Under the pieces are notes generated by a model. That model saw only the letters and a program-made list of their open reading frames with translations, did not search any database and was not told the DNA's origin. A program made the position numbers and the translations under genes. Positions 10,377 through 15,998 of a stretch of DNA of 33,419 bases are shown here, in pieces. Source of the DNA: Tissierellales bacterium (GTDB lineage Bacteria > Bacillota > Clostridia > Tissierellales > Dethiosulfatibacteraceae); contig JAFGVC010000057.1 in the NCBI GenBank assembly GCA_016938195.1, forward strand, positions 1-33,419. The letters run 5' to 3'. How positions within the stretch are numbered: the first letter of the stretch is position 1; every line of letters starts with the position of its first letter.

Positions 10377-11684
10377 ATGAATTACAAAGAAGCGTTAGAT
10401 TATATCCATTCAACGTATAAATTCGGTTCAAAATTAGGATTGGAAAATATAGGTTTTTTGTTGAATTTATTGGGAAACCCTCAAAAAAACCTTAAGTTTA
10501 TCCATGTTGCGGGTACCAACGGCAAAGGCTCAACCTGCAGCATGTTGTCTTATGTTTTAACAGAGGCGGGCTATAAGACCGGGCTATTTATTTCTCCTTA
10601 CCTAGTCGATTTCAGAGAAAGAATACAATTAAATAATCAATTGATTTCAGAAGATGATCTCGTCAATGCTGTGGCCTGTGTTAAAGCTGCTACAGAGCGT
10701 ATGGTAAAAGAGGGCAAAAATCATCCAACAGAATTCGAAATTGTAACGGCCGTTGCTATGGTCTATTATAATATTCAAAAGGCAGATATTGTCATTTTAG
10801 AGGTAGGAATGGGTGGCCGACTTGACGCAACAAATATCATCGATAAGCCTGAATTATGCATTATCACAAGTATCAGCATGGATCACAGTGAATATCTAGG
10901 CCATACGCTAGAAGAAATAGCCTTTGAAAAGGCTTCAATTATTAAATATGGCTGCCCCGTCGTCGTTTATCCGCAAAAAGATTCTGTGCATAATGTCATT
11001 CGACAATTCGCAGTTAACAAGCTTTCGAGACTCTATGCGGTGAATCCCAAGGATATTGAAATTATCAATTACGGACCTTGGGGTCAAAAATTGAAATATA
11101 ACAATTCAGCTTCTTCATTAAATATCAGCTCTTTTGAGCTGAGTCTGATAGGTGTACACCAGTCGCTAAACGCTCTGACTGTACTTAAGGCTTTGGAGAT
11201 ACTTATTGACAAAGGATATAACATAACCAATCATCATATTGTTTCAAGTCTTCAAAAGGTAAGATTCATGGGCAGACTTGAAATTCTATCTAAAAAACCA
11301 CTGATTATCATTGATGGTGCTCATAACGCCGAAGGCATCGAAACACTAACGCATAATCTGAAGACATACTTTCCGAATTACGAAATCCATCTTTTTTTCG
11401 GGATGCTATCAGACAAGGAAATGACAAGCCAGCTCAGCGCTTTAGCTTTATCGTGCAAAGAAATCATTACCGTTACGCCGGATAATCCAAGAGCCAAGCC
11501 AGCTACTGAGACGGCTGCAATGTTCGAGAATTGGACCGATGCGCCTATTTACGCGTGCGATAATTTAGAAGAATCTCTACCTCATATTGGTTTAGGAGAA
11601 AATGCGATAAATATATATTGTGGGTCACTGTATATGATTGGAGCAGCAAGAAATTTAATCCTCAATAGATATATTCAATCATAA
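10377..11684 (+). CDS. folC: Folylpolyglutamate synthase / dihydrofolate synthase
   Basis: A 435-residue Mur-ligase-like enzyme that adds glutamate to dihydropteroate and/or reduced folates, using ATP. The P-loop is AGTNGKGS (45-52). SPYLVDFRERI (73-83) is the family's folate-site loop. EVGMGGRLDATN and SISMDHSEYLG follow, and the C-terminal ligase domain begins around GVHQSLNAL. CAGGAG lies 6 nt before the ATG. An intrinsic terminator follows at 11735. Whether it is bifunctional (FolC) or only FPGS cannot be decided from the window, because no other folate gene is present. Confidence 0.95.
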   Translation: MNYKEALDYIHSTYKFGSKLGLENIGFLLNLLGNPQKNLKFIHVAGTNGKGSTCSMLSYVLTEAGYKTGLFISPYLVDFRERIQLNNQLISEDDLVNAVACVKAATERMVKEGKNHPTEFEIVTAVAMVYYNIQKADIVILEVGMGGRLDATNIIDKPELCIITSISMDHSEYLGHTLEEIAFEKASIIKYGCPVVVYPQKDSVHNVIRQFAVNKLSRLYAVNPKDIEIINYGPWGQKLKYNNSASSLNISSFELSLIGVHQSLNALTVLKALEILIDKGYNITNHHIVSSLQKVRFMGRLEILSKKPLIIIDGAHNAEGIETLTHNLKTYFPNYEIHLFFGMLSDKEMTSQLSALALSCKEIITVTPDNPRAKPATETAAMFENWTDAPIYACDNLEESLPHIGLGENAINIYCGSLYMIGAARNLILNRYIQS

Positions 11685-11734: not shown

Positions 11735-11775
11735 AGGGACTTAAGAAGTCCCTATTTTATTAATTTTATTTAACA
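11735..11775 (+). terminator. Rho-independent terminator after folC
   Basis: AGGGACTT (11735-11742) and AAGTCCCT (11746-11753) form an 8-bp stem with a 3-nt loop, followed by the T-rich ATTTTATTAATTTTATTT. Confidence 0.75.
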
Positions 11776-11784
11776 ATTTTAGTG

Positions 11785-11812
11785 TTTACAAAGCCTGTTT
11801 TTTGTATATAAT
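11785..11812 (+). promoter_or_regulatory. Promoter of the candidate small RNA
   Basis: TTTACA (11785-11790), a 16-bp spacer and TATAAT (11807-11812). No open reading frame with a ribosome binding site follows. The only downstream signal before the next promoter is an intrinsic terminator. Confidence 0.65.
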
Positions 11813-11818
11813 GATTAT

Positions 11819-11907
11819 GGTTTATAAATTCCCCCCTCTTTAAAATATATTTTGAAATGTTATGGACATTTCAGCCTGGTCAAACCTTTTGATCAGGCAC
11901 TTTTTTT
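11819..11907 (+). ncRNA. Candidate ~89-nt small regulatory RNA with a C-rich single-stranded region
   Basis: Expected transcript from about 7 nt after the -10 box to the T-run of a strong terminator. From 5' to 3': an unpaired A/U-rich leader; a C-rich stretch TTCCCCCCTCTT (11829-11840); an A/T palindrome; hairpin 1, GAAATGT (11854-11860) with ACATTTC (11866-11872) around loop TATGG; and the terminator hairpin. The exposed C-run resembles the C-rich seeds of Firmicutes sRNAs that pair with G-rich Shine-Dalgarno regions. It matches no RNA family I recognise. The call rests on promoter, structure and terminator alone. Confidence 0.5.
11874..11907 (+). terminator. Rho-independent terminator of the candidate small RNA
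   Basis: GCCTGGTCAAA (11874-11884) and TTTGATCAGGC (11888-11898) form an 11-bp stem with one G-U pair and a CCT loop, followed by AC and seven Ts. Confidence 0.85.
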
Positions 11908-12144: not shown

Positions 12145-12173
12145 TTGACAACTTGCATTTATCATGTTATAAT
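12145..12173 (+). promoter_or_regulatory. Consensus sigma-A promoter for the Cys-rich micro-protein pair
   Basis: Perfect TTGACA (12145-12150), a 17-bp spacer and perfect TATAAT (12168-12173). It is the strongest promoter seen in the window, which implies high expression of the two small genes. Confidence 0.85.
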
Positions 12174-12206: not shown

Positions 12207-12356
12207 ATGAAATCAACTATGAAGGTCATCGAGAAGAAAGCTGCAAAATTAAAATTTAAACCCTGCAATACCATCACTTGCATTCATAATATTGATAATA
12301 AGTGTATGCTCAATAAATGTGAAGTCTACGAACGCTCACTAAAACAAGAATATTAA
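12207..12356 (+). CDS. Cys-rich micro-protein, copy 1 (49 aa, unknown function)
   Basis: A 49-residue protein starting at ATG 12207, with GGAGG 8 nt upstream. The first half is Lys-rich and probably helical. The second half contains C20-x4-C25-x7-C33-x4-C38 in the setting CNTITCIHNIDNKCMLNKC, followed by a charged tail. The four Cys plus a His next to the second Cys suggest a small metal-binding (Zn or Fe) knuckle; this is inference. It is vaguely like DUF1540 Cys-rich proteins, but the spacing is not one I can match. It has a close paralog immediately downstream and shares its strong promoter. It is not a SCIFF-type peptide: it has four Cys, not six, and no radical-SAM maturase is adjacent. 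Confidence 0.8.
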   Translation: MKSTMKVIEKKAAKLKFKPCNTITCIHNIDNKCMLNKCEVYERSLKQEY

Positions 12357-12392: not shown

Positions 12393-12548
12393 ATGAAAAA
12401 AGAAATGTTGAAAAAAGAGGAAATGGCTACAAACAAGTTTAATTTTAAATCATGTGGCACTATCACATGCATTCATAATATTAACAATAAATGTCTTCTG
12501 AAAAAGTGTGAAATGCACGAAAGATCCTTTAGACAAGAAGGTATTTAA
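12393..12548 (+). CDS. Cys-rich micro-protein, copy 2 (51 aa, paralog of copy 1)
   Basis: A 51-residue protein beginning at ATG 12393, with GGAGG 6 nt upstream. It repeats the same four-Cys pattern (C21-x4-C26-x7-C34-x4-C39) and the same block as copy 1 (C-x-T-I-T-C-I-H-N-I-x-N-K-C), followed by an E-R-S-x-x-Q-E tail as in copy 1. The N-terminal halves differ more (MKKEMLKKEEMA). Conservation concentrated on the Cys block across a tandem duplication indicates selection on that block. It lies 36 nt after copy 1 and ends 26 nt before a strong terminator. The function is unknown. Confidence 0.8.
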   Translation: MKKEMLKKEEMATNKFNFKSCGTITCIHNINNKCLLKKCEMHERSFRQEGI

Positions 12549-15755: not shown

Positions 15756-15779
15756 AAAAATCCCTGTCAAAAACAGGGA
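15756..15779 (-). terminator. Attenuator terminator of the ileS T-box
   Basis: On the minus strand a 7-bp stem (TCCCTGT/ACAGGGA) with a 5-nt loop is followed by a run of six Ts, immediately after the T-box antiterminator sequence. Confidence 0.88.
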
Positions 15780-15998
15780 CGAAATATTTCCGCGGTACCA
15801 CCCAGATTGCAGATTAAATCTGCCACTTAAAAAAATAACGCTTATCGCGGGATATTTTACTGTCTTCAAATATCCGACTCTTGGATGATGTTCGCCTTAT
15901 GTCCATTCATAATCTCTCACCGATGATTACGTCTCTGAAAATATCCATAAAGCTACTGTTCCAGTCATTGTCTTTTATATACAAAGTATGGATGCTAT
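15756..15998 (-). promoter_or_regulatory. T-box riboswitch controlling ileS
   Basis: Reading the minus strand: a Stem I region with AGAGAC, GGTGAGAG and GAAC preceding the putative specifier ATC (15887-15889); the invariant T-box GGGTGGTACCGCG (15791-15803); and a competing terminator with arms CCCTGT/ACAGGG (15762-15767 and 15773-15778) followed by six Ts. The specifier AUC is an isoleucine codon, consistent with the downstream gene. Uncharged tRNA-Ile would stabilise the antiterminator and let transcription continue. Confidence 0.93.

Follow-up and report, generated by a model that had tools for sequence, protein, structure and literature searches.

Positions 11,785 to 11,907 of the window (the whole stretch of DNA analysed, 33,419 nucleotides, contig C139 of a 2.5-Mb Tissierellales genome) very probably hold the gene for a regulatory RNA of about 90 nt. 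We consider it likely that this RNA is a free-standing, trans-acting molecule of about 70–90 nt, whose unpaired C-run would pair with G-rich Shine–Dalgarno (SD) sequences and block the start of translation. Judged by its invariant core, its organization as an independent unit and its occurrence in two families, the gene is under selection and in that sense real, and sequence comparisons support its boundaries, its conservation, its independence from neighbouring genes and the lack of a conserved coding function. The RNA appears to be of an ordinary kind, a C-rich small RNA (sRNA), yet to represent a new family as far as the tools used can tell. Rfam covariance models gave nothing above the gathering score at the locus or its homologs, the sequence-only reading of this stretch could likewise name no matching RNA family, and a literature search found no paper joining Dethiosulfatibacter with an sRNA.

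The sequence-only reading had described a TTTACA-16-TATAAT promoter, about 89 nt without an open reading frame (ORF), an exposed C-run and an 11-bp terminator stem with a T-run, and our analysis bears out all four (Table 1). The promoter hexamers and the stem with its T-run lie as described, and no ORF of at least 20 amino acids overlaps the transcript except those that begin within its 3′ part and read on through the terminator; on sequence grounds, the roughly 89 nt between promoter and terminator are without a plausible ORF. Near the 5′ end of the unit stands CCCCCCTCTTT, with the C-run CCCCCC at 11831–11836 and TCTTT at 11837–11841. The window RNA has an MFE of -23.3 kcal/mol versus -12.7 ± 2.7 kcal/mol for shuffles (z = -3.9), and both the C-run and the 5′ half are predicted to be unpaired in its MFE fold; the 5′ part of some relatives forms weak alternative pairings once flanking sequence is folded too.

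Table 1. Coordinates of the proposed sRNA gene in the window
Feature	Position	Strand	Remark
Upstream element ATTAAT-N5-TTAACA, 11-bp-spaced imperfect direct repeat	11759..11775	+	ends 9 bp 5′ of the -35
Sigma-70-type promoter TTTACA-16-TATAAT	11785..11812	+	11/12 matches; conserved in relatives
-35 TTTACA (then 16-nt spacer)	11785..11790	+	
-10 TATAAT	11807..11812	+	
Predicted transcription start	11817..11820	+	5–8 nt past -10; inferred from spacing
Predicted sRNA transcript, ~89 nt	11819..11907	+	span from promoter to terminator; homologs
Invariant core GGTTTATAAATTCCCCCCTCTTTAAAA with C-rich seed	11819..11845	+	same letters in 6 genomes, 4 genera
Hairpin GAAATGT-TATGG-ACATTTC, 7 bp, loop TATGG	11854..11872	+	fold; window's genome only
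Intrinsic terminator, 11-bp stem and T-run	11874..11907	+	stem 11874–11898, then ACTTTTTTT

BLAST over 100 genomes, the window's own included, returned five strong matches in other genomes, every one within the window's family. A pattern search across all eight family genomes located the 27-nt core, mismatch-free and single-copy, in six of them, representing four of four genera; the reversed-pattern control gave zero matches, and the two genomes without the core are 68% and 71% complete. In an exact scan of GTDB contigs, the inner 23 nt occurred only in Dethiosulfatibacter aminovorans, whose type strain DSM 17477 has the identical core, and four uncultured relatives. Mean identity between genera falls from 0.98 in the first 34 nt of the core region to 0.68 in the promoter and 0.49 in the terminator, while the flanks (0.29–0.44) are unalignable, shuffled sequence giving 0.28–0.36. 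Of 16 predicted pairs in the six-genome alignment, 7 are altered on both sides, in the terminator. The earlier reading had asked whether anything beyond the terminator is conserved, and the core, kept across genera, answers that it is. As a conserved element, the 7-bp TATGG-loop hairpin of that reading has to be given up: it exists only in the window's genome, where the MFE structure lengthens it to 9 pairs, and the middle part in relatives is instead AU-rich (AAAATATATATTTTGTTTTG). The functional parts would thus be a 5′ C-rich segment, then an AU-rich linker, and lastly a terminator whose sequence is free to vary.

When 249 genomes of the order were scanned with R1, a sequence-only model of promoter and core, two more plausible matches appeared (E = 7.6e-6 and 4.4e-5), both belonging to a single other family. 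With the second-family pattern AAAAATTCCCCCTCTATTTATTATA, allowing at most 3 mismatches, the variant AAATTCCCCC(C)TCTATTTATTATA was found in 14 of 27 genomes against zero control matches. As one of these genomes (G082) carries two copies, 15 were retained; a match in G217, which has 3 mismatches and shows no terminator when folded, was left out. Every retained copy has a -10-like element and a terminator whose stem sequence differs while pairing is kept, and in all 21 copies from the two families the terminator, with many different stem sequences, starts 33–51 nt past the start of the AAATTC motif. Matches occur in only 7 of the 13 near-complete second-family genomes, so loss or divergence of the RNA is possible. 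The two G082 copies (G082:C1:1438458-1438482 and G082:C1:1451736-1451760) lie about 13 kb apart, each preceding a complete or fragmentary gene of a related ABC importer ATPase, and the second has TTTCTCCCTCT in place of AATTCCCCCTCT.

A class-wide search of 391 genomes with a 21-sequence model found no convincing match elsewhere; its candidates, with a best E of 1.6e-4 beyond the window's own genome, resemble chance matches, being coding sequence or a terminator with a C/G stem of its own. Weak BLAST relatives in family f6 (L014, L015 and L018) are antisense to the start region of a coding gene and were dropped, and viral contigs do not contain the second-family core. The clostridial scope of the earlier reading is too wide, only two families of the order Tissierellales having been found to carry the RNA. 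Its central proposal, an orphan sRNA with a C-rich seed, is upheld by the identical core, the second family, the covarying terminator stems, the changing neighbours and the lack of an Rfam match.

C-rich unpaired runs of FsrA, RoxS and IsrR bind SD sequences (PMC9410917, PMC10433868). The RNA described here shares with this class a conserved, unpaired C-rich segment, together with its own promoter and intrinsic terminator, independent of neighbours. FsrA of Bacillus subtilis, Fur-controlled and iron-sparing, binds SDs through a single-stranded C-rich motif (PMC9410917, PMC10433868); ours is likewise a small RNA with such a motif, presumed to bind SDs, but no Rfam-level match to FsrA was listed for it, and it belongs to another order, lacks a conserved Fur-type operator and has one C-run only. 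RoxS/RsaE of Bacillus and Staphylococcus acts through C-rich single strands on metabolic mRNAs, at their G-rich SDs (PMC10433868). There are three C-rich regions in RoxS, and no Rfam match to it was listed for the window RNA; by eye, neither a ResD nor a Rex site was recognised at the sRNA promoter, the left half of the latter being missing. In the iron-sparing IsrR of Staphylococcus the C-rich regions are conserved and the sequence of the terminator is poorly so (PMC9410917), the pattern also seen in the window RNA, but the three C-rich regions of IsrR lie in defined stem-loops and it has two Fur boxes, whereas ours has one unpaired 5′ C-run. The RNA may well work like FsrA, RoxS/RsaE and IsrR, with membership in none of them indicated.

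In the mechanism we propose, the CCCCC(C)UCU run, unpaired and about 12 nt from the 5′ end, would pair with GAGGGGG-type SD regions, and the resulting duplex on chosen mRNAs would block translation start. The AU-rich middle and the terminator U-run may provide stability and possibly chaperone binding, while the sigma-70 promoter and a conserved upstream element would drive transcription, probably conditionally. Transcription, SD pairing, promoter regulation and targets are what we infer; masking of SDs by the C-run is probable, given the known Firmicutes sRNAs and a target pattern picked out post hoc. Alternatively, the RNA could titrate, as a sponge for another RNA or a protein, instead of pairing with SDs. 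Strong conservation of one unpaired segment also fits a binding site, and the mRNA targets are candidates only; against this, a pure C-run complementary to SDs fits a well-known mode and no partner RNA or protein was found, and we regard titration as unlikely.

The sRNA is flanked in the window by folC (10377–11684), which has its own terminator at 11735–11753, and by two tandem small-protein genes (12207–12356 and 12393–12548). The order folC – sRNA – small Cys-rich protein – ileS holds in the window's genus and a second one (g2); in another (g4) it is ileS – sRNA – ABC exporter, with a small Cys-rich gene between on the other strand. A transport ATPase gene and an unrelated gene flank the sRNA in D. 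aminovorans, and in G002 the gene 3′ of it differs again from those in the window, g2 and g4. Of the 15 second-family copies, 14 stand upstream of the gene of an ABC importer ATPase (the exception being G090) and 8 lie near feoAB, with a DtxR-type iron regulator gene between in 4 of these 8. Because the neighbours vary between genera, the sRNA is better seen as a free-standing gene than as a leader.

This variety bears directly on the idea of a cis-acting leader or attenuator, in which a signal would set stopping at the terminator against read-through into the downstream small-protein genes. Such an arrangement would account for a terminator closing a conserved 5′ region, and the best Rfam score at the locus is indeed to a leader, the PyrG leader (RF02371), over CUCUUUAAAA followed by a terminator. 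That match reaches 25 bits against a gathering score of 65 (E = 0.13), the 5′ GGGC start and the terminator-stem CUCCC of the family are absent here, and pyrG is not adjacent at these loci, so the PyrG assignment was rejected. Moreover, the genes that a leader would control differ from genus to genus and between families, the next gene in the window has its own 12/12 promoter at 12145–12173, and no conserved antiterminator pairing was seen; we find a leader quite unlikely.

Several features of these loci are recorded here in their own right. The tandem genes in the window encode proteins of 49–51 amino acids with the four-cysteine pattern CNTITCIHNIDNKCMLNKCEVYER and no Pfam or NCBIfam match; g2 and g3 have relatives of them close to ileS or the sRNA, as does g4, where the strand is the opposite one. 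A T-box leader precedes ileS in the window (15772–15977, minus strand, 144 bits), and L038 and L041, the loci with the ileS of relatives, contain T-box leaders too. In several second-family genomes a small protein ending in EERKKDVDANEK is encoded convergently with the sRNA (in L099 on the minus strand, at +90..+311 counted from the sRNA core); it weakly resembles the CDIF630_02480-like spore surface protein family, below the cut-off (E = 0.0019).

Could the core instead encode a peptide? The frame ATG GTT TAT AAA TTC CCC CCT CTT TAA fits it exactly in five of the six family genomes, and ATGGTTTATAAATTCCCCCCTCTTTAA would read M-V-Y-K-F-P-P-L-stop, possibly leaderless and with a Pro-Pro stall. 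The 27-nt core, however, shows zero synonymous changes across four genera, G006 has ACG for ATG, and most second-family copies read ATG and then directly TAA with the C-run still kept; a peptide is therefore improbable as the conserved function, and we rate a tiny coding gene very unlikely. A chance pairing of promoter and terminator in an AT-rich intergenic region is hardly credible: promoter-like sites alone are common here (15 versus 11.4 in shuffles), but the window has a single promoter of at least 11/12 matches with a strong terminator 50–140 nt on, 30 block shuffles gave no such unit, and the same layout is conserved across genera and families.

The regulatory RNA that we favour may also be subject to control itself. 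An element RTTA(C/A)(A/G)-N5-TTAA(C/T)A, stopping about 9 bp short of the -35, recurs at the same place upstream of the promoter in nearly all 21 copies from the two families (degenerate in G066 and G224, and misaligned by the script in G226). Regulators of the OmpR family, PhoP and WalR among them, typically have half-sites spaced by 11 bp. The element is a candidate activator site or UP element and probably makes transcription conditional. In the genomes searched for a regulon sharing it, none was found; its matches away from the sRNA occur at control frequency (24 versus about 22), so no regulon can be named. Possible control by PhoP was examined by comparison with pstS: its promoters in G001 and G004 carry TTAACA-N5-TTAACA, with three repeats in the former, equal in spacing to the sRNA element RTTAMR-N5-TTAAYA but different in the first repeat.

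Fur-family proteins are present, and a possible Fur box over the -10, ATAATGATTAT, is not conserved throughout, being found in four of the six family members, broken in G001 and G006 and absent from the second family. Nor was a metal-regulator box common to feoA and the sRNA promoter found. Second-family feoA is preceded by a TTAGC-N4-GCTAA-like dyad, likely the site of a DtxR-type metal regulator, at loci of the order feoA – DtxR-type regulator (L091, L093, L097 and L100) or feoA – sRNA (L092, L094, L096 and L101); the sRNA promoter is without this dyad.

As to targets, GAGGGGG stands 1–12 nt before ATG at 105 sites versus 68 in the reversed control, a roughly 1.5-fold excess that is expected of SDs in general and on its own proves nothing. 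Three products, picked post hoc from about 50 such sites with an open frame, recur across genera: a molybdopterin dehydrogenase FAD subunit (PF00941; G000, G002, G004 and G005), a ParB-like protein (G001, G004 and G006) and citrate lyase alpha (PF04223; G000 and G002), the two Pfam assignments having been tested on G000 proteins and the remainder judged by likeness. In five family orthologs of the FAD subunit the SD is GAGGGGG or GGAGGGAGGG (the latter in G001), with duplex energies of -16 to -23 kcal/mol versus -4 to -15 kcal/mol in the order's other families. A more distant family homolog in G007, where the sRNA was not found, still pairs fairly well (-18.7 kcal/mol), and strong G-rich SDs may simply be inherited. 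The pattern, post hoc as it is, is suggestive of targeting by the C-run, and makes the mRNA of the molybdo-enzyme FAD subunit the best candidate target.

More tentatively, and less likely than not, the RNA could be this order's own counterpart of FsrA, RoxS and IsrR, switched on by way of an OmpR-type (PhoP/WalR-like) direct repeat and restraining the mRNAs of metal-dependent redox enzymes and fermentation. With its boundaries, invariant seed, promoter element and 21 copies, the unit is defined well enough for direct testing. It would add an independently conserved case of riboregulation by a C-run, bearing on how often the Firmicutes evolved the masking of SD sequences.
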